Shown: positions 5,894-15,630 of the stretch, in pieces
Layout of the letters: each line of letters starts with the position of its first letter
Position numbering within the stretch: the stretch's first letter is position 1
DNA from: a virus
IMG/VR virus record: IMGVR_UViG_3300042945_002630
Location: 1 to 44,723 of that record
Direction: 5' to 3' (one strand)
DNA length: 44,723 nt
Program-made: the position numbers and the translations under genes
The notes under the pieces: model-generated
Seen by the model: the letters and a program-made list of their open reading frames with translations, nothing else
Databases searched by the model: none
What the model was told of the DNA's origin: nothing

Positions 5894-6103
5894 TCAGATA
5901 ACACCGAAGAAAAGATTTCCAGTGAGAGCATAAGAAATAGCACCTGCGACAATACCAATCATTGCCCAACGACCATTCATTTTTTCTGCCTTCTCAGCAT
6001 AAGGTTCAAACCCATAACGTTCAATGTCCTCTTTGGTCATATACATTGTGGGTTCTTTAGCAAACATATTCATTTGCCCGAACTCATTTTTTGTTACAGT
6101 CAT
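5894..6103 (-). CDS. hli: High-light-inducible protein (69 aa)
   Basis: The C-terminal half carries the chlorophyll-binding helix (residues 40-62) with the motif EKMNGRWAMIG and ends NLFFGVI, as in cyanobacterial Hli proteins. The N-terminal half is soluble (YMTKEDIERYGFEPYAE). It is the first gene of the redox group, immediately downstream of the porin terminator. It is about twice the length of the other hli gene here, so the group has one ordinary and one minimal Hli. Confidence 0.93.
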   Translation of the reverse strand: MTVTKNEFGQMNMFAKEPTMYMTKEDIERYGFEPYAEKAEKMNGRWAMIGIVAGAISYALTGNLFFGVI

Positions 6104-6139
6104 TATCTTTTGTAAAGATTTACAACAACACTATATAGC

Positions 6140-6164
6140 AAAAAAAGAGGGGTGTCAACCCCTC
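6140..6164 (-). terminator. Rho-independent terminator of the porin gene
   Basis: A 7-bp stem (6147-6153 with 6158-6164, loop of 4) is followed on the minus strand by seven T residues (6146-6140). Confidence 0.88.
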
Positions 6165-6194
6165 CTTAAGATTTTGTTTAGATTTACTGACTTA

Positions 6195-7661
6195 TCAGAA
6201 CTTGAATGTTGTCTGAATTACACCACCCCAGTTGGAGGAGTTGTTGACTAGACGTTGGTTATCACTTGCATAGAAGATTGCAGGAGTGATGCTGATGTTA
6301 TCAGACACTTGATACTTGTAGAAGAACTCAAGCATAGTTGCTTTCTCCAGATCTTCACCAGTAGGTGCCTGACCGATAGCAAAACCAGCAGTATTACCAT
6401 CAACAAACACATCTTCCCACTGAAGACCTGCCATCCAGGACTGACTGTTGGTAGCAGCACTTTCAGTACCACTTACAGTATTCCAACCATAACCAGCAGA
6501 GATAGAGGGAACCCAACCAGATTGAGTAGGTTGCCAATATGCGTTCACAGCATAACCATTAGAGGTTTGTCCAGGAACCAGAGCACCCGATGCACCGTTC
6601 AGACCATTGAAGGTACGAACACGAGTGCCTTCGGTGCCATAACGATAACCGAATGCGATACCATAGTTGTCACCACGATAACCGATTTGTGCCAGAGTGT
6701 TGAGAGCACCAGAACGGTCAAACTCACCAGTTGCACTATCATTGCCATTTTGAGCAACATAGTTTACACCAGCAACGAGACCTTTGTTGCCATACTGAAC
6801 ACCGAAACCTGAACCAACTGCCTTGTTATAGACACCAGGAGTACCACCGACTTGGAAGAAGTCAAGGATCTTGGAACTATAAGCAGAAGGAACCCAAGAG
6901 ATTTCAGTATTACGAACCAGAGCACCAGCAGTAAATGTGGTGGTGTTATTAAATGCAGGGAACTGATAGTACAGACGGTCAATAACTACGTTATTACCAT
7001 TCTCACCAGTGGTATTGTCTGCCTTATCCAGTTTGAACAGAGAAGAACTGGAACCGAAAGGATCAGTACTGAAGTTAGAAGAACGAAGACGAGTGCGAAG
7101 CAGATCGTTGCCAGTGAATGAAGTATCCAGGTTCAGACGCAGATCATAGTTGAATGCAGTACGAGTTGCATCACCACCTTTGGTTTGGTAGTCATCTACA
7201 CCACCAAGAACAAAGTTTGCTTCACCACGCAGTTTAGTGGTGGTGGAGAACTGTTGTGCTTCAAGTGTAGTAACTTGTGCTTCCAGACCATCTACACGAC
7301 CCTTGAGAACTGCAAGTTCTGCACCGAATTCATTCAGAAGCTTCTTAAGTTCATCGGTAACTTCAGTTACACGATCCAGGCAAGCATTTAGAAGTGCTGC
7401 TGCTTCATAACGAGTCATTGCACGACCGCCACGGAATGTGCCGTTAGGATAACCAGCAACGCAACCATAACGATCTACCAGTTGCGACAGTGCTTGATAT
7501 GCCCAATCGGTTGGTTGCACATCAGAAAATTGAGTAACACTTGTGACCTGTTCTTGGGATGCATATTGGTTTACTCCGTTCATGTTAATTTCTGCGGCAA
7601 TTGCAGAAGGAGCAACCATTCCCAGAGCAACAGGTGCAAGCATCAGTTGTTTGAGTTTCAT
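6195..7661 (-). CDS. Cyanobacterial outer-membrane porin with SLH domain
   Basis: A 488-residue protein in the layout of the Som/OprB-type porins of marine Synechococcus. It has a signal peptide (about 1-23, MKLKQLMLAPVALGMVAPSA), an SLH domain (about 45-95; FSDVQPTDWAYQAL and YPNGTFRGGRAMTRYEAAAL), a short coiled coil (about 98-135) and a long beta-barrel region ending in the terminal aromatic TTFKF. In the host, the SLH part anchors to peptidoglycan and the barrel forms a pore. The gene has its own late promoter and terminator. Start choice: this ATG gives a clean signal peptide; ATG 7688 is possible; the ATG at 7718 lies too close to the promoter. Confidence 0.9.
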   Translation of the reverse strand: MKLKQLMLAPVALGMVAPSAIAAEINMNGVNQYASQEQVTSVTQFSDVQPTDWAYQALSQLVDRYGCVAGYPNGTFRGGRAMTRYEAAALLNACLDRVTEVTDELKKLLNEFGAELAVLKGRVDGLEAQVTTLEAQQFSTTTKLRGEANFVLGGVDDYQTKGGDATRTAFNYDLRLNLDTSFTGNDLLRTRLRSSNFSTDPFGSSSSLFKLDKADNTTGENGNNVVIDRLYYQFPAFNNTTTFTAGALVRNTEISWVPSAYSSKILDFFQVGGTPGVYNKAVGSGFGVQYGNKGLVAGVNYVAQNGNDSATGEFDRSGALNTLAQIGYRGDNYGIAFGYRYGTEGTRVRTFNGLNGASGALVPGQTSNGYAVNAYWQPTQSGWVPSISAGYGWNTVSGTESAATNSQSWMAGLQWEDVFVDGNTAGFAIGQAPTGEDLEKATMLEFFYKYQVSDNISITPAIFYASDNQRLVNNSSNWGGVIQTTFKF

Positions 7662-7731
7662 AAATTTGTTTTTAGTACTAAACGACATATTGATTAACCG
7701 TGCAAATAGTTGCGGCACAGTTGTATCACGG

Positions 7732-7739
7732 TATTTATC
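7732..7739 (-). promoter_or_regulatory. Late-type promoter octamer for the porin
   Basis: The minus strand reads GATAAATA, about 70 bases upstream of the chosen porin start. It matches the NATAAATA form of the T4 late octamer. Confidence 0.6.
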
Positions 7740-7762
7740 TTAACACTTATTTTGGGATCAAG

Positions 7763-8554
7763 TCAAGATTTTTCAGGTGAGGTTATTCTTCCAAGATATG
7801 GATCATAATTCATTAGATCTTCAATTTTTATATTTGATCCATTTTGTTGCCAAAATTGAAGAAGTCCATCATGACTTGACCGATGGAAAATATCAATATG
7901 TTCTGGATGAATTGATGATCCAAGAGCAATTTTATAAAGAAAAATAGGAATAGAAAAAGTATTTCCAGAATTGTATATCAAATCATCTGCAACTGCACGA
8001 GGTTTAACACCATTATCAAGTTTATATTTTTCTCCTCTGATATGATGCTTAATTAATTTTTCTGCATGATGACGAGTAATCATATAGCAAGCAGTGGAGA
8101 AATCATTAACAAATCTTTTATGCAATTGGACATGAAGATTTCCTGTGCAAATAATTGCTAACTGAATTACATCATAATCATAAGGAACCTTAGAATAAAA
8201 ATCGATCCAAGTAAAATCCCAATTTTTCACAATCTGAAGGTCTACATCATCCTCCATAATTATTGCATATGGAGAATTAGAATTTTCATACCAAAATTTA
8301 ATTGCCTTTAAGTGAGATGTAGTGCATCCAATTTCACCTGAGGTCATCATATCGGGATAACGACCAGAGATAATATCACTCAAATCATCATCCCTGCCAT
8401 CATAAGCAGAAATGCGAGTATAGTTTTCAATCTCCCATTCTTTAAATTGGTCTTCCATATACTCTTTTCTATCTGGTTGACCATCAAGGTTCAAGTAATA
8501 TATGGGTCCAATATTTTTAAGTTTATATGCTGATTTGTTTTTTTCCATTATCAT
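7763..8554 (-). CDS. GT25-family glycosyltransferase
   Basis: 263 residues, matching the LPS-type glycosyltransferase family 25. YYLNLDGQPDRK (19-30) is the N-terminal signature, GEIGCTTSHLKA (73-84) the conserved middle block, and MEDDVDL (100-106) the metal/sugar-nucleotide DxD-like motif. The usual role is adding a hexose, often galactose, to lipooligosaccharide. It is the last gene of the ten-gene glycan cassette and overlaps the upstream oxygenase-like gene by 32 bases. Target unknown. Confidence 0.85.
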   Translation of the reverse strand: MIMEKNKSAYKLKNIGPIYYLNLDGQPDRKEYMEDQFKEWEIENYTRISAYDGRDDDLSDIISGRYPDMMTSGEIGCTTSHLKAIKFWYENSNSPYAIIMEDDVDLQIVKNWDFTWIDFYSKVPYDYDVIQLAIICTGNLHVQLHKRFVNDFSTACYMITRHHAEKLIKHHIRGEKYKLDNGVKPRAVADDLIYNSGNTFSIPIFLYKIALGSSIHPEHIDIFHRSSHDGLLQFWQQNGSNIKIEDLMNYDPYLGRITSPEKS

Positions 8555-9062
8555 ATGTATTAAAAAAGAACACTTGTGTCAACCTAGCGTTTTCGGGTGA
8601 ATTTCCAAATCCAGGAATAAAACTTCTATGAAAATTTTTATTTCCCTTAAAAAATACTATTCTATTGTATACATTACCAATTAAAGAATTCAAAGAATAA
8701 TCCTCATCAGTTTCGGGATCAATTTTGACTGGAGTATATATTGCAGTTCCAGATCCAACATTAGCATTTGGTGTTAAATACAAAACTGCAGACCATTCTG
8801 TTTCGTCTTTATGAACCCAACTTTCGGTATCTTCAAAGCAAAGTTGAAAACAAAAACTATCTTGATCATAAGGAAAGAAAATCTCCTTCCCCATTATCTC
8901 TTCAAATTTTTGTTTTATCATTTTTCGATAATCACAATCTGCTTTTAAACTACGTAATCCTGGAAAAATTCCCTGTTTTGGATAATTAATTGATATAGCA
9001 GATGATCTTACTAGATCTGGATTATCTAAAAAATTATCAACTACAATTACAACTGAATCCAT
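8523..9062 (-). CDS. Putative 2OG-Fe(II) oxygenase (DUF6445-like)
   Basis: 179 residues. The iron-binding pattern of 2-oxoglutarate dioxygenases is present in order: H84-x-D86 in WVHKDE, H145 in NFHRSF, and R160 in ARLTQVFFF as the likely 2OG-binding Arg. GTAIY between them fits the jelly-roll. It may hydroxylate a sugar, lipid or protein side chain. It lies inside the glycan cassette, overlapping both neighbours (32 bases and 16 bases), which favours a sugar-related substrate, though that is inference. Confidence 0.65.
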   Translation of the reverse strand: MDSVVIVVDNFLDNPDLVRSSAISINYPKQGIFPGLRSLKADCDYRKMIKQKFEEIMGKEIFFPYDQDSFCFQLCFEDTESWVHKDETEWSAVLYLTPNANVGSGTAIYTPVKIDPETDEDYSLNSLIGNVYNRIVFFKGNKNFHRSFIPGFGNSPENARLTQVFFFNTYDNGKKQISI

Positions 9063-9901
9063 GAATCAAGATATAGATCTTTAGTATCTTTATCGGCATA
9101 AGAAGGTCCAAACCACATCTTTGGTGCAACGACAGTTCCTTTACCATTTTGCAACCAAGCACCCCACCAAGACAATGAGGAATTTGCGATAATTGCACCA
9201 GAACATAAAGACATTAAACAAAGATCAACATAAGGAGTATATGATCCATCTGGATATTTTTCTTCTGGTTCAGAAATTAAAAACCTATCATCAGAAAAAA
9301 TTTCTTGTTCTTTAACCCATTCTGGTGAATCAGAAACAACAATTACAGTTTGATCATCATCAAATTTCTTCAATGCTTCCTCATAATACTCTAATGGTTG
9401 AGGAGGATGTTGCTCAGAGCATTGAGTATAAGACCATTTAAATCCACGAGCATCGACAAGATTTGGATCTCCCCTACGGACATGTAAGAAAATAGGTTTA
9501 TCCAAAGTGGAAATCATCTCTTTACATGGTTCTAAAATTTCATCATAAAATGTAAAATCTTCTCTTATACTATCTGTTATATGAGAAAAATATTTTTCTG
9601 TTTGAAAAAATCCATGTATGCTCACATCATTTGGACACAAATTATGCAAATCTTCATCGTAATGAAATTGCCTTTCTACAACTACTGGTGCAAATCCATT
9701 GTCCAAAAATCCTTTATTGCCACTAGAAACATTTGGCAATTTAAAACATTTATGTAAACTATAGTTATCAATTCTAGACGCAGTGAAAGGTGGTATGCAA
9801 AACTCATACCCCATCTTACTTGCGATTCCCCTCAATGCTGCATATTGAAACATTTGGTTTCCCAAACGACCATTATTGCCAAGTTCATTAAACGCTAACA
9901 T
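9047..9901 (-). CDS. GT11 alpha-1,2-fucosyltransferase-like protein, copy 1
   Basis: 284 residues with the family's three marks: GRLGNQMFQYAA near the N terminus (11-22), HVRRGD (140-145, motif I that binds the GDP-sugar), and NSSLSWWGAW near residue 245. GT11 enzymes move L-fucose from GDP-fucose in alpha-1,2 linkage. No GDP-fucose-making gene is in the window, but GDP-mannose 3,5-epimerase is, so the donor could be GDP-L-galactose (see findings). A paralogue lies one gene upstream. Confidence 0.88.
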   Translation of the reverse strand: MLAFNELGNNGRLGNQMFQYAALRGIASKMGYEFCIPPFTASRIDNYSLHKCFKLPNVSSGNKGFLDNGFAPVVVERQFHYDEDLHNLCPNDVSIHGFFQTEKYFSHITDSIREDFTFYDEILEPCKEMISTLDKPIFLHVRRGDPNLVDARGFKWSYTQCSEQHPPQPLEYYEEALKKFDDDQTVIVVSDSPEWVKEQEIFSDDRFLISEPEEKYPDGSYTPYVDLCLMSLCSGAIIANSSLSWWGAWLQNGKGTVVAPKMWFGPSYADKDTKDLYLDSWIQL

Positions 9902-10706
9902 TCAATTGCTTCCTCCTTTCTTTATAATATTCCTGTTGGTTATAATAGTTAACCAATGTATCAGTATTTTGCTTTCTTATCCATTGCCAAAGATTATGAT
10001 TATCGGAAAACTTTGGATTATGGTAATGGGAATTGAATGTTCTCCCATGCTCAAGATGATAAATTAAATCATTAACCCTACCCATTTTATATCCAAAACT
10101 AGCAAGTCTGTAATAAAATTCGCAGTCTTCTGCTCCCCAGGATATAAAGTTTTCATTCCACATCCCACAATCAATATAAGTAGATCTTTTAATCATTTGT
10201 CCCCAACCAATAGTAGAGGATGCTTTTTGGGAATTTTCAATAAGAATTTTTGGATCAAATTTTGAATTCAAAAATCCCTCATAGACCTCCATGGGATAAT
10301 TCACTGCCCGTTGATATGCTCCACACCCATAAGGATAAATTACATCACAATTCCCCTGAATAATTGCAGAATATGCATGGTGATATGTTGATACTGGGAG
10401 TATCATATCAACATCGTGATTGAAAACAATATCAGAAGATGATTCAATAAGAAGATCATTTAGTATTCTTGTTTTGTGAAAAAAATCATCTTCACTTTCT
10501 TCAAAAATGTGGTTTAAATTTTCAATACCAACATATTTTTTAATTTCAGGTATAGCTCTAAATTTAAAATTTGATCGTTTATCTACTTCCTTTACAATAA
10601 CTTTAGACTCAGGAAAGTGATAAAGAAGATAAGAAACAGAAGTAATTATATTTCTCAATCTATCTTCACTTTCAATTCTACACGGAATTAAAAAATCAAC
10701 TTTCAT
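9888..10706 (-). CDS. GT-A glycosyltransferase (GT2/GT7-like)
   Basis: 272 residues from the ATG chosen here (a TTG two codons earlier is possible). The N terminus MKVDFLIPCRIESEDRLR fits a GT-A Rossmann-like fold, and FNHDVDMIL (about 96-104) holds the DxD metal site. The C-terminal block has GWGQMIKRS and WGAEDCEFYYR, as in the galactosyltransferase (GT7) C-terminal domain that binds acceptor. It is sandwiched between the two GT11 copies and ends inside copy 1's start. Confidence 0.8.
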   Translation of the reverse strand: MKVDFLIPCRIESEDRLRNIITSVSYLLYHFPESKVIVKEVDKRSNFKFRAIPEIKKYVGIENLNHIFEESEDDFFHKTRILNDLLIESSSDIVFNHDVDMILPVSTYHHAYSAIIQGNCDVIYPYGCGAYQRAVNYPMEVYEGFLNSKFDPKILIENSQKASSTIGWGQMIKRSTYIDCGMWNENFISWGAEDCEFYYRLASFGYKMGRVNDLIYHLEHGRTFNSHYHNPKFSDNHNLWQWIRKQNTDTLVNYYNQQEYYKERRKQLNVSV

Positions 10707-10708
10707 CT

Positions 10709-11602
10709 TCAAACCTCTGGAGCAATCTCTGATGGATCATTATAGAGTTCAATCCAACCATCAGGAATTAAATCATCCATAATGTAATGATCATAGGCAG
10801 GTCCAAACCATGGTTTGGGAGCAATAACTTTTTTATTTGGATTATTAATTAGCCAAGCACCCCACCAAGAAAGAGAAGAATTTGCAATAATTGCATCAGA
10901 ACACAAAGTCATCAAACAAAGATCAACATAAGGAATAGAAGCACCATCACGGAACAACTCCTTTGAGTTGTCTGAGAAATGAAATTTATCTCCCTGGAAT
11001 AATGGTTGCTTTTTGCACCAATCAATTACATCAGAAAAAACAATAACTTTATAACTATCGTCAAACTGCTTCAATGCTTCTTCATAGTAATCCATTTTAC
11101 AAAGAGGATGGTATTGCTGAAGCATTTGATAAGACCAACGTTCACCCCTCACTCCAGTTAGATTGGGATTTCCTCTGCGAACATGTAGAAAAACCAATTT
11201 ATCTGTATTAAAGCTTTCAATAAATTCTTTACAGGGGTCTAACCATTCATCTTTAAATGTAAAATCTTGACGAATTTCATCAGAAATATGCTTGAAATAT
11301 TTTTCTGATTGAAAATACCCATCAATATCTACATTATCAGGGCATTCATTAAAAATTTTCTCATTGAAGTGGAATTCCCTCCAAGAAATCATTTGTTTAG
11401 GTTGTTCTCCCTGATTTTTTTCTTGACAGTTAGTTAGTTTAAAACCATCAAAAAGACCATAATTATCACATCTATCTGCACCTTCTGGTGGAATCATCCA
11501 ATCAAATCCACGATTTGCTGCAATGCCTCGAATAGCAGCATACTGGAACATTTGATTACCGAGTCGTCCTGCATTACCAAGACCATTAAATGAAATTGCC
11601 AT
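10709..11602 (-). CDS. GT11 fucosyltransferase-like protein, copy 2
   Basis: 297 residues, clearly paralogous to the copy at 9047-9901: both share GRLGNQMFQYAA, the FQSEKYF/FQTEKYF block, and SSLSWWGAW. In this copy motif I reads HVRRGN (140-145) where the other copy and the family have HVRRGD. The last Asp is normally conserved, so this copy may have altered donor or acceptor use, or lower activity. Same cassette, so both probably modify the same glycan at different positions. Confidence 0.87.
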   Translation of the reverse strand: MAISFNGLGNAGRLGNQMFQYAAIRGIAANRGFDWMIPPEGADRCDNYGLFDGFKLTNCQEKNQGEQPKQMISWREFHFNEKIFNECPDNVDIDGYFQSEKYFKHISDEIRQDFTFKDEWLDPCKEFIESFNTDKLVFLHVRRGNPNLTGVRGERWSYQMLQQYHPLCKMDYYEEALKQFDDSYKVIVFSDVIDWCKKQPLFQGDKFHFSDNSKELFRDGASIPYVDLCLMTLCSDAIIANSSLSWWGAWLINNPNKKVIAPKPWFGPAYDHYIMDDLIPDGWIELYNDPSEIAPEV

Positions 11603-11603
11603 T

Positions 11604-12260
11604 TTACTCCTTACTTGTTTTTACAAAAAGTGCGTCTCCCCAATCGGAGGTATGTTCGAAAGTTTCTACATGCTCGAACCCAAATCCTTTCAGATAATCT
11701 TTGAGTTCATCAAACATTACATTATCAACATAATCTGGATTATTCCAAGTTGCTTCAGTCGTCACATAATTAACATTTTCCAAAACTTTTGTTGCACCCT
11801 TTAATACGAGAAGTTCCGCACCTTGAGTGTCCATATCCAAAAGTTGAAAGTCAGAATAATTAAATTCATTAGACTCAATAAGAGTATCCAACTTTACAGT
11901 TTCAACTTTAATTGTTTCCTTATGCCACTCTTCAAATCTACCTTTTGGTCTAAGTAGAGAAGAGCATCCTTTATTACCAGTCATAAAACCAGCATCTGGT
12001 CCATAGCAAATGTGAAAATCAATCTCCTCACAATCACTATCACTTGCTGCTACACAGAATCCATGAGACTCTACACTTGTTTCTGCTCTGCTTAGTGCGA
12101 TTTCCAACTCCTTAAATACATCTGGATTGGGTTCAACCCAGATGATTTGCTTAGCACCAAGTTTTTCATAATCATAAATTTCTTCACCACGATGAGCACC
12201 AACATGGATTACCCCATCGACTTTAACATTATTTTCCGAAAAATATTTGTATTGACTCAT
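11604..12260 (-). CDS. FkbM-family methyltransferase
   Basis: 218 residues with the FkbM pattern: GVIHVGAHRGEE (15-26, SAM loop), WVEPNPDVF (41-49, acidic residue binding the SAM ribose) and LLDMDTQGAE (about 139-148, typical FkbM motif). These enzymes O-methylate sugars or polyketides. In a phage glycan cassette, the expected job is capping a sugar hydroxyl on LPS or on a virion glycan. It overlaps the upstream GT10 gene by 4 bases (ATGA). Confidence 0.85.
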   Translation of the reverse strand: MSQYKYFSENNVKVDGVIHVGAHRGEEIYDYEKLGAKQIIWVEPNPDVFKELEIALSRAETSVESHGFCVAASDSDCEEIDFHICYGPDAGFMTGNKGCSSLLRPKGRFEEWHKETIKVETVKLDTLIESNEFNYSDFQLLDMDTQGAELLVLKGATKVLENVNYVTTEATWNNPDYVDNVMFDELKDYLKGFGFEHVETFEHTSDWGDALFVKTSKE

Positions 12261-13057
12261 TTAAAATAATTGGTATAGATAAAATCTTCCGCAACAGGAA
12301 GGTTTAAAGAACGTTCAAAATTATCTTTAACTGCATCTATTTTAGAATGATAAAGGTCTTCTGTCAATGAGGAAATATCAAAATCATCATCTAAGAATAT
12401 GATTCCATCTTCATTGAAATACTCAGTAATTCCTTTACATCCGTAAAAAATTGGAATAGTTCCAGCAGCAAAACAATCTGTGATTTTCTCAGTGAAATAA
12501 GTATCATAGACTGCGTTTTCTACTGCAATAGAGAACATATAATCCTTTAGTGCTTCTTCTTTACAAGAAATATCTCGGATACCTCTACCAAACAAATCAA
12601 CTTGGTCCTTGAACTTATTCACAAACTCAAGTCTCTTTATGTGTCCAGGAACCATAGACTTATTTGATGATACCATAGAAACCAATTTGGTCTTCTCAAA
12701 TATCTGTCTGTCTACAACCCAAGGTGCAGCATTGCTGAGTGCGTAGTTAATCTTAGGATACTTCTCGCACAATTCTCTATCACAACTAAAAATACCATCA
12801 ACTCTGGTAGCAGCAAACTCATAATTTTTAATAATCCAATCATAGATTGGTTTAATGATTTGCTTGGATTCCAACAACCAAATATAAGTGGGTTTGATTT
12901 GAACCGTAGAAAATGCTTCCAGAGAACGTTGATTTACATAGAAATTAACTTCTCCAGAACCATCATAAACCCACTCAGTAAACTTAGAAGTGTTTTTATC
13001 TGAAGTAGAAGGAAGAAGAGAATCGTTGCAATAAAGATTAATCTTAAATTTGCTCAT
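12257..13057 (-). CDS. GT10 alpha-1,3/1,4-fucosyltransferase-like protein
   Basis: 266 residues. The C-terminal half has the GT10 signature: YMFSIAVENA (173-182), YFTEKITDCFAAGTIPIFYG (187-206), which forms the GDP-sugar pocket. Family members add L-fucose in alpha-1,3 or 1,4 linkage. With two GT11 genes this makes three GDP-L-fucose-type transferases in one cassette. The N-terminal acceptor half is divergent, as is normal. Its start lies inside the upstream SDR gene's end (14-base overlap). Confidence 0.85.
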   Translation of the reverse strand: MSKFKINLYCNDSLLPSTSDKNTSKFTEWVYDGSGEVNFYVNQRSLEAFSTVQIKPTYIWLLESKQIIKPIYDWIIKNYEFAATRVDGIFSCDRELCEKYPKINYALSNAAPWVVDRQIFEKTKLVSMVSSNKSMVPGHIKRLEFVNKFKDQVDLFGRGIRDISCKEEALKDYMFSIAVENAVYDTYFTEKITDCFAAGTIPIFYGCKGITEYFNEDGIIFLDDDFDISSLTEDLYHSKIDAVKDNFERSLNLPVAEDFIYTNYFK

Positions 13058-13892
13058 TCTTCATTGCCTCAAAGACTTTAGCAATTCCTTGCTCGATAGT
13101 TGTTTTGGGCATCCACCATTTAGTCAAATATGTATCTGGAAGATTTCTTTTATCCATTTGAACAGAATCTTTTTCTTCTGATGGTTGAATCTTCACTGAC
13201 TTATCAATCAAATTAAATTGACCAGAAATAATATTTGCAATATCAAGAATCTTTGTGGAATGGAAACTTGTGATGTGAAGATTATCTTCTGAAGTAAAGT
13301 CATTATAGTTTTCCATAATTGCCTCTAGTGCTTCGCAGCAATCTTCAGCATAAAGAAACTCACGTTGCTCCTGACCATCAGTAAGCATATCAATTACACC
13401 AGTCTCAAATCCTTTACGAATAAAGTCAGTAATAACGTGTGCTTTATCGTGGTCTTTTTCGATGCCATACACATTCCAGAACTTAACAATAAGTCCATTA
13501 AGAGACTTAGTATAAAGTTCTCCAACATTCTTCAGAACTCCATATGGAGAATAACTCATATTGCTCATCTGAGATGATGCAAAAACAAACCTCTTATTGT
13601 ACTTCTTAAGAAGTCCAAATGCATTTGCCATCAGACGTGCATTGTTATCAATGAACTGAAATGTGTGCTGATACTTTTTAAGGTATCTGGAACCACCCAC
13701 ATCAAATGCAAGGAAGAATACAAAGTCAGAATCTTTGATATTATCTTCCAAGTTTTGATTTGGAATAACTGTCATATCCTGTTCTGGTCCATTCACAACA
13801 TCAAATTCATTGACGGTATGACCTTTTCCACGAAGATATTCGGTCAGGTATGCTCCAACCTGACCACTTGAACCTAATACTGAGATTTTCAT
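13044..13892 (-). CDS. NAD(P)-dependent epimerase/dehydratase (extended SDR)
   Basis: 282 residues. The cofactor loop GSSGQVG (7-13), the catalytic SSQMS and YGVLK (YxxxK) patterns, and FWNVYG place it among nucleotide-sugar epimerases and dehydratases. Substrate is not clear. Being adjacent to GDP-mannose 3,5-epimerase, it could reduce or epimerise the same GDP-sugar, or act on a different one. It overlaps the upstream methyltransferase gene by 4 bases. Confidence 0.85.
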   Translation of the reverse strand: MKISVLGSSGQVGAYLTEYLRGKGHTVNEFDVVNGPEQDMTVIPNQNLEDNIKDSDFVFFLAFDVGGSRYLKKYQHTFQFIDNNARLMANAFGLLKKYNKRFVFASSQMSNMSYSPYGVLKNVGELYTKSLNGLIVKFWNVYGIEKDHDKAHVITDFIRKGFETGVIDMLTDGQEQREFLYAEDCCEALEAIMENYNDFTSEDNLHITSFHSTKILDIANIISGQFNLIDKSVKIQPSEEKDSVQMDKRNLPDTYLTKWWMPKTTIEQGIAKVFEAMKNEQI

Positions 13893-14581
13893 TCTAAGCT
13901 ATCTACTATCCAAAGAGTTTGTACGTGTGGGTAAGAATTCCCACTTTGATATAATTTAGTCATAGAGATTCCCCACTGGTCTAGAATCTCTTTATGTGCT
14001 CTGGATTCTCCATCTTTGAATTCTTCAAACCCAGGAGTTCCACCCCAATCATCATACCCAATTAGTGTTCCAGGAACAATCAAATTATTCTCCATCAAAT
14101 AATTAAATGCGTATTTTGTTGGGGAATAAATGTCCAAATCAAAATCAACGTAAAATGCTGGTTTTAAATCTTTTTGTTTTGGGAGAGTTTCCTCAACAAG
14201 TCCAGCAACAACAGATACTTTACTTTGATTATTTTTATTCGTAAAGATAGTTTGAACTTCTTTCTGAATATGATTTGCACAATCATCTGGAGTATCCAAA
14301 CTCATATGCTTAAGAACATTAAATTCATCTGGAAAAATATCTGGATTCCAAGAATCTTGGAAAATGGGTTCTGCAGTTTCTTTTGGCATTCCAGTAAAAA
14401 CATCAAACCCATGGAAAGTATTCACTTCTATTTTGTGTTTATTTAAAATAGAAGCAATTTCTTTCATCGACCCACCATTAAAAACACCAAATTGATAAAC
14501 ATCATAGTTTACCAATTCTTCTTTTTCAAAACTATTATGGTCGTTAACTGCGATATCTAATAAAGAAGTTCTCCAACTCAT
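13889..14581 (-). CDS. TylF/MycF-like sugar O-methyltransferase
   Basis: 230 residues resembling macrocin-type O-methyltransferases: YQFGVFNGGSMKE (29-41, SAM loop), FHGFDVFTGMP, YVDFDLDIYSPT and IGYDDWGG, which in the family carry the metal-binding Asp residues. It would methylate a hydroxyl on a deoxysugar or other hexose. It lies between the two epimerase genes with 4-base overlaps on both sides, so it is coupled to sugar synthesis. Second of two methyltransferases in the cassette. Confidence 0.8.
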   Translation of the reverse strand: MSWRTSLLDIAVNDHNSFEKEELVNYDVYQFGVFNGGSMKEIASILNKHKIEVNTFHGFDVFTGMPKETAEPIFQDSWNPDIFPDEFNVLKHMSLDTPDDCANHIQKEVQTIFTNKNNQSKVSVVAGLVEETLPKQKDLKPAFYVDFDLDIYSPTKYAFNYLMENNLIVPGTLIGYDDWGGTPGFEEFKDGESRAHKEILDQWGISMTKLYQSGNSYPHVQTLWIVDSLE

Positions 14582-15630
14582 GATGCTTTCTTGGCAATTT
14601 GCTCACTAATCCATTCATATGTTTTGCGGATACCTTCTTCAAGAGTCTGTGAATAATCCCAACCAAGTTTTTCACGAATTAGGTCATTATTGGAATTGCG
14701 ACCACGAACTCCAAGTGGTCCTGGAATATGATTCTTTTCGACTTCCTTATTTGAAACTTTAGCAGCAGTATCGACAAGTTGATTAATTGTCACCATTTCT
14801 TCAGAACCAATATTAACGGGTCCCATAAACTCAGAATCCATCATTCGACGGGTTGCTTCGATACATTCATCAATATAGAGGAAAGATCTTGTTTGCTTAC
14901 CATCCCCCCATACTTCAATAGTGCCGCCCTCAGTCGGAAGATATGCCACTTTTCTACAAATCGCAGCAGGAGCCTTTTCTCGTCCACCTTCCCAGGTCCC
15001 CTCTGGTCCAAAGATGTTATGATATCTAGCAACACGTACAGGAATGCCGTAATTCCTATTGTAAGCAAAATATAGACGCTCACTAAAAAGTTTTTCCCAA
15101 CCGTATTCAGAATCTGGATTGGCAGGATAAGCAGAAGACTCCCTACAATCAGGATTATCGGGATCAAGTTGGTTATGCTCAGGATACATGCAAGCAGAAC
15201 CAGAATAGAAAATTTTAGTAGTATTCGTACCGACTCTTTCATTTAATTTACGTTGTTCCTCAAGAACATTCAAATTGATTGATACTGAATTATGCATAAT
15301 ATCTGCATCATTCTCCCCAGTGAAAACAAATCCTGCTCCTCCCATATCAGCAGCAAACTGATAAATTTCATCAAATGCTTGAATATAACGATATGGAACA
15401 TGGTTATAAAAATTGCCAAGTTCTCCTTTATATTCTAGGACTCTACTAACAAAATCTACATCTCTAAGGTCTCCCTGAACAAATTCATTTGCTTCAGTGG
15501 GAGAAAATTCTGGTCTTTTAAGGTCTATACCACGAACCCAATATCCTTCGGAACGTAATCTTTTTACCATATGACTTCCAATAAAGCCACCAGCACCAAG
15601 AACAAGTGCTGTTTTAATGTATTGACTCAT
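14578..15630 (-). CDS. GDP-mannose 3,5-epimerase
   Basis: 350 residues, extended SDR. GAGGFIG (12-18) binds NAD; QFAADMGGAGF and the block HNIFGPEGTWEGGREKAPAA are diagnostic of GDP-mannose 3,5-epimerase. The catalytic residues known for the Arabidopsis enzyme (C145, Y174, K178, K217) are all found shifted by two: C147, Y176, K180, K219. The enzyme turns GDP-D-mannose into GDP-L-galactose (and GDP-L-gulose). It is the first gene of the glycan cassette, so its product is probably the donor or precursor used by the following transferases. A terminator and structured leader lie upstream. Confidence 0.92.
   Translation of the reverse strand: MSQYIKTALVLGAGGFIGSHMVKRLRSEGYWVRGIDLKRPEFSPTEANEFVQGDLRDVDFVSRVLEYKGELGNFYNHVPYRYIQAFDEIYQFAADMGGAGFVFTGENDADIMHNSVSINLNVLEEQRKLNERVGTNTTKIFYSGSACMYPEHNQLDPDNPDCRESSAYPANPDSEYGWEKLFSERLYFAYNRNYGIPVRVARYHNIFGPEGTWEGGREKAPAAICRKVAYLPTEGGTIEVWGDGKQTRSFLYIDECIEATRRMMDSEFMGPVNIGSEEMVTINQLVDTAAKVSNKEVEKNHIPGPLGVRGRNSNNDLIREKLGWDYSQTLEEGIRKTYEWISEQIAKKAS

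Follow-up and report, generated by a model that had tools for sequence, protein, structure and literature searches.

The DNA analysed here, referred to as the window, is a stretch of 44,723 nucleotides from a viral record (IMGVR_UViG_3300042945_002630). On its minus strand it carries an unbroken porin gene of the por_somb family, at 6195..7661(-), which encodes 488 amino acids. The ATG at 7661 is conserved among relatives as the start; two other in-frame starts lie upstream, at 7688 and 7718, and would give proteins of 497 or 507 residues. Elsewhere the window encodes nrdA, nrdB, primase, helicase, DNA polymerase, gnd, transaldolase and tryptophan halogenase. The nrdAB, primase, helicase and DNA polymerase genes are of phage type, and the window comes from a T4-like cyanophage.

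The protein has an N-terminal SLH domain, an OprB-type barrel and an aromatic last residue, F488. It scores 304 bits with the NCBIfam profile por_somb (NF033921, cut-off 100 bits), aligned along the entire profile (1-485 of 485). Pfam at E ≤ 0.001 returns SLH (E 7e-9) and OprB (E 6e-14) only, and not the OprP/OprO family (PF07396 type); a PHROGs search with the porin gave no match. Residues 1-23 (7593..7661(-), MKLKQLMLAPVALGMVAPSAIAA) look like a signal peptide when the translation is judged by eye. Next comes an SLH domain of the peptidoglycan-binding type (residues 45-88, 7398..7529(-), PF00395), which also matches the SLH domain of OmpM1 (8bym). In the AlphaFold2 model it leads into a long helix or coiled-coil stalk (residues 84-136, 7254..7412(-)). 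The rest of the chain, residues 141-488 (6198..7241(-)), is a 16-stranded β-barrel ending in the C-terminal Phe, as found both in the model and by fold comparison.

The model has a mean pLDDT of 82 and places the 16 strands between residues 141 and 487, with F488 last; the even turns are short and the odd loops longer, as is usual in porins. The closest solved folds are OprB (4gey, Z 25.5), Omp32, OprO/OprP and the SLH porin OmpM1; all 16-strand porins match alike in this comparison, which does not tell anion, phosphate and general porins apart. The sequence-only reading had described a complete host-type porin, and the unbroken frame, the SLH and OprB domains, the full por_somb match and F488 bear this out. 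Of the parts that it listed, the SLH domain, helix and barrel are confirmed, and the signal peptide stays a judgement by eye.

The order SLH, helix, barrel is that of the cyanobacterial SLH/OprB porins (Som; Slr1841 and Slr1908 of Synechocystis). Compared with these, the viral porin is phage-encoded, its barrel is about 50 residues shorter than in most picocyanobacterial paralogues, and it has extra conserved basic residues. We nonetheless dropped the idea of a truncated barrel, since its length (about 356 residues in viruses) equals that of the sister host group (357): against its closest host relatives the barrel shows no internal deletions. Proteins annotated as 'S-layer protein' in phage S-PM2 and as 'iron uptake porin' in S-CREM1 share the SLH region of the window porin; however, at 279-292 residues they are too short for a 16-strand barrel.

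The porin occupies a slot that in the window runs GT25, porin, hli, ferredoxin, peroxiredoxin. The upstream border is a family-25 glycosyltransferase (GT25, 7763..8554(-), Pfam PF01755), common to the window, DSL-LC03, Bellamy and S-SM2, and the downstream border is an hli-like gene (5894..6103(-)). In DSL-LC03 hli directly follows GT25, so the slot is empty. In the marine cyanophage Bellamy the place of the porin, from GT25 to hli, is taken by pstS, and in the marine S-SM2 by pstS and phoA; S-PM2 has its short SLH protein in the same slot, just ahead of hli. As Bellamy and S-SM2 keep pstS in it, the porin slot is a site of phosphate genes in other cyanophages. The pstS and phoA genes of cyanophages (S-SM1, S-SM2, P-SSM2) are host-derived genes for acquiring phosphate, found in the GT25/hli slot that the porin also occupies. 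Their products act in the periplasm, whereas the viral porin would be a putative outer-membrane step. The pstS of P-SSM2 is reported to be controlled by the host PhoBR system (PMC10976474).

Two further features of these regions were noted. Next to the porin, window positions 7763-15630 hold a cluster of glycosyltransferases (families 25, 11 and 10), epimerases and methyltransferases, probably for surface sugar synthesis. DSL-LC03, with no porin in the slot, encodes a 549-residue autotransporter-like barrel protein beside its endolysins (L004:8871-10520).

The gene is widespread among uncultivated T4-like viruses of small cyanobacteria. Scanning viral sequences with the window protein gave 144 confirmed stretches, and a looser scan at least 548. 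The fetched loci yielded 180 distinct full-length viral porins of 475-509 residues, all ending in Phe, so the search for the same gene in other cyanophage genomes, which had been proposed as a check, succeeded, with several copies beside T4-type capsid and portal genes: in four long records (G003, G004, G005 and G007) the porin shares its contig with the T4 portal and gp23 genes. Of five long contigs chosen by their capsid gene alone, one had the porin. Among 50,697 annotated phage records the only full-length homologue, 71% identical, is that of S-SRM01 (two accessions). We found no description of this gene in cyanophages in the literature library that was searched, and the S-SRM01 genome paper does not mention its porin (PMC8557907). 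The host relatives, together with the isolates S-SRM01 and DSL-LC03, lead us to infer a freshwater and estuarine habitat for the porin-bearing phages. One viral contig, G037, has two porin genes of the viral clade (L225 and L240), about 13 kb apart.

In a tree of viral and host porins, all viral sequences form one clade (UFBoot/SH-aLRT 100/100). This clade groups, again at 100/100, with the freshwater Cyanobium/Synechococcus porins L087-L097, its nearest host relatives, apart from the other host paralogues. The proposed phylogeny with host and phage porins thus gives a single viral clade, sister to freshwater picocyanobacterial porins. These relatives were found with an alignment that included S-CREM1; the window protein by itself, whose exact peptides are viral, matched nothing in a host search. 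A single sequence in the viral clade, L086, is labelled bacterial; it comes from a Microbacteriaceae MAG, and its contig is most likely a misbinned cyanophage contig, since frames resembling NrdB, dCMP deaminase and hli adjoin its porin. Recent host contamination was likewise dropped as an explanation, given the depth of the viral clade and the hallmark genes on the same contigs.

Part of the sister group is linked to the phosphate-capture gene pstS. Host porins L087, L088 and L093-L096, 53-60% identical to the viral ones, and also L099, have pstS 180-340 nt downstream. So pstS directly follows most of the nearest host porins. Of the 75 host loci, 67 lack a flanking pstS; these are mostly other paralogues. 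The same arrangement recurs in viruses. In 46 of the 112 viral loci whose downstream sequence spans 4 kb or more, pstS follows the porin within 2 kb, and of 19 long porin-bearing contigs that were searched, 12 have pstS, always downstream, at 0.1-1.4 kb and on the same strand. The phage product scores above the TIGR00975 equivalog cut-off for PstS. In a PstS tree, 34 of 37 viral representatives fall in one main clade; the branching order relative to host PstS is not resolved, so co-acquisition of PstS with the porin is not proven.

The best explanation of this pattern is that the pstS-linked porins of freshwater picocyanobacteria gave rise to the viral porin or have a common ancestor with it, as the sequences suggest. 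The sequence-only reading had proposed a change in nutrient uptake. That role remains likely, narrowed now to the pstS linkage and to Pho boxes in some relatives; the window copy has neither. No pstS adjoins it or occurs anywhere in its 44.7 kb, and the complete genome of the isolate S-SRM01 has no pstS either. About half of the viral loci have neither pstS nor a Pho box, and the two occur together no more often than expected. As the window copy has no pstS beside it and its promoter no exact Pho box, its phosphate reading rests on its family and not on its surroundings.

The main rival is a general small-ion or iron channel, which would keep up overall permeability after host shut-off with no preference for phosphate. 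The por_somb family bears the name 'iron uptake porin', Slr1908 mutants have about 40% less iron (PMC8707739), a Dps-like gene occurs in 35 and ferredoxin in 38 of the 112 viral loci, and the two copies without pstS in the window and S-SRM01 would fit it as well. However, pstS is paired with the porin in the nearest host branch and in many viral loci, and a subset of the promoters has Pho boxes, which makes such a channel rather unlikely. The viral porin is found in two neighbourhoods, never together: one ends in hli (GT25/hli, 63 loci, as in the window), the other in the Dps-like gene (35 loci, as in S-SRM01). As Dps and hli mark exclusive neighbourhoods, and pstS accompanies the porin in both (28 hli loci and 16 Dps loci), the Dps linkage of the S-SRM01 type was dropped as a general iron signal.

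Upstream of the window gene lies a sigma-70-like promoter, TTGACT-18-TAAGAT, at 7737..7766(-). Its -10 is overlapped by a late-type octamer, GATAAATA (7732..7739(-)). In 131 of 159 relatives the porin is preceded by a sigma-70-like promoter, for the most part with a 17-nt spacer (shuffles give 8.3, random windows 10.7%), and in 52 by the late octamer (shuffles give 8.4, random windows 5.3%), which in 29 cases overlaps the -10 as in the window; the related sequences are not independent, and these counts are not probabilities. Thus the NATAAATA octamer of T4-type late genes is present in the window and in only 52 of the 159 relatives, and ATAAATA is not enriched in the window (16 matches against 18.4 expected), but across relatives an octamer precedes the porin more often than by chance. 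Late expression from the porin's own late promoter, as first proposed, is not supported in that form. We dropped late-only expression as unlikely, since the sigma-70-like promoter is the conserved element and the octamer, present in a third of relatives, overlaps its -10 in the window. Early and late promoters are also reported to overlap in S-PM2 and Syn9 (PMC2984593).

An exact Pho box, CTTA-N7-CTTA, precedes the porin in 31 of 159 distinct promoters of viral copies (shuffles give 2.0, random windows 2.3%); in 28 of the 31 it stands directly before the -35, with the -10 in place. The promoter of the window gene has no exact Pho box. Pho-box prediction in phages has been reported as unreliable (PMC10976474). 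The pstS-linked host porins differ in their upstream regions: they have a CRP-like palindrome and no Pho box, whereas the viral genes have the sigma-70-like promoter, in some cases Pho boxes, and no palindrome. This palindrome, TGTGTTCTGNAACACA, stands about 113 nt before the start in hosts L088, L092-L096 and L099 and was not seen upstream of viral porin genes.

Other upstream elements were observed alongside these. Many viral leaders, among them those of L171, L232 and L326, have CTTAAG-N5-CTTAAG near the start, some 85 nt ahead of the porin, in addition to the Pho box before the -35. The 5'-UTR of the window gene contains TCGTTTAGTAC (7675..7685(-)), 24 nt before the start. As TC(G/C)T(T/A)TAG(T/A)AC, this leader motif occurs in 85 of 159 relatives at -21 to -28, with one at -52, and has 9 matches elsewhere in 3.6 Mb.

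Within the window's cluster of 41 sequences the overall dN/dS is 0.14, with 0.104 for the strands, 0.107 for the SLH domain and 0.164 for the surface loops; all regions of the porin are under purifying selection (0.10-0.20). The barrel and loops L2, L3 and L5 are conserved, and the surface loops are short and more variable. Seven basic residues are invariant in the viral set: K210, K213, K280, R329, R340, R347 and R349. Four of these, K213, K280, R329 and R340, are present in 100% of viruses, 82-100% of sister hosts and 2-34% of other host porins. Such branch-specific basic residues would be compatible with anion handling, and as they separate the branch from other host porins they argue against a general or iron channel. 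In OprP/OprO a basic ladder lines the pore; the branch-specific K/R residues of the viral porin may be a counterpart.

The loops also bear on another role raised for the gene, superinfection exclusion, in which the porin would replace or dilute a host surface protein that serves rival phages as receptor. The Lc porin of the lambdoid phage PA-2 is a precedent. In the viral porin the extracellular loops are shorter than those of most host porins, L1, L4 and L6-L8 are variable, and the glycosyltransferase cluster adjoins the gene in the window. The loops of the sister host porins, however, are already short, all regions are under purifying selection, and in the Dps neighbourhood the gene travels with pstS and not with surface genes; exclusion therefore appears improbable as its role.

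It is more doubtful still that the SLH domain has the main function, tethering the outer membrane to peptidoglycan to delay vesiculation or lysis. That the domain is conserved like the strands, that loss of Slr1908 causes hypervesiculation (PMC8707739) and that S-PM2 and S-CREM1 have short SLH proteins would agree with a tether, for which a 16-strand pore with its L2, L3 and L5 loops, all kept under constraint, would nevertheless be superfluous. A passing captured host gene, useless to the phage, would share the host origin and nothing else; 180 intact distinct copies in one deep viral clade, the low dN/dS and the conserved promoter leave this with almost no probability.

Altogether, phage hallmark genes lie on the porin contigs, the tree points to a host origin and the dN/dS to selection. 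In the best reading of these sequences, the porin would be a host-derived auxiliary metabolic gene of T4-like cyanophages, of putative benefit to the phage. Because it belongs to the branch found beside pstS, the phage probably installs it for phosphate inflow, and on the sequence evidence we moderately favour, as its most likely role, the supply of the outer-membrane step in the uptake of phosphate or small ions. Phosphate limitation is known to raise phosphate-specific porins in picocyanobacteria (PMC7250820; SYNW2224, PMC3865332).

In the mechanism that we propose, the host RNA polymerase would transcribe the gene from the sigma-70-like promoter during infection; in some phages the promoter appears PhoB-responsive, and in some, as in the window, it would act with an overlapping late octamer. 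The exported porin would insert into the outer membrane, anchored to peptidoglycan via its SLH domain, and add to or replace the channels there. Phosphate, and probably other small ions, would still enter the periplasm; there the PstS of phage or host would bind phosphate for import. As a bolder and tentative proposal, which we rate slightly below an even chance, channel and PstS may form a two-step phosphate import module of freshwater and estuarine T4-like cyanophages, acquired once from picocyanobacteria, movable in two slots and partly under host PhoB control, that would rebuild phosphate entry across both outer membrane and periplasm after host shut-off.

The phosphate genes previously known from cyanophages give the periplasmic PstS and the enzyme PhoA, and the outer-membrane step was missing. 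If the viral porin clade is as widespread and intact as it appears, viruses would also control solute entry into the infected cell. S-SRM01 and its host would offer a handle on phosphate import in infected cells whose host transcripts are being broken down, and on how phages in lakes and estuaries control the permeability of the outer membrane. Low-oxygen marine viruses have an OmpL-like porin beside glnK-amtB (PMC8115048). Like the viral SLH porin, it adjoins a nutrient transporter gene; in contrast to it, it belongs to another family, of Bacteroidetes origin, in a nitrogen context and on two contigs (PMC8115048).

At its 3' end the window gene has an intrinsic terminator, a 10-pair stem followed by a T-run (6144..6167(-)); the strong terminator of the sequence-only reading is thus confirmed, at 6167-6144(-), just outside the range assigned to it there. 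The promoter of the next gene, TTGACA-17-TATAGT (11/12), lies at 6130..6158(-). Window positions 6130-6167(-) are therefore a composite terminator-promoter, with the -35 TTGACA inside the hairpin, the T-run as spacer and the -10 at 17 nt. There are 70 distinct cases of this composite in viral loci; it occurs in 37 of 161 porin downstream regions and in none of the simple shuffles.
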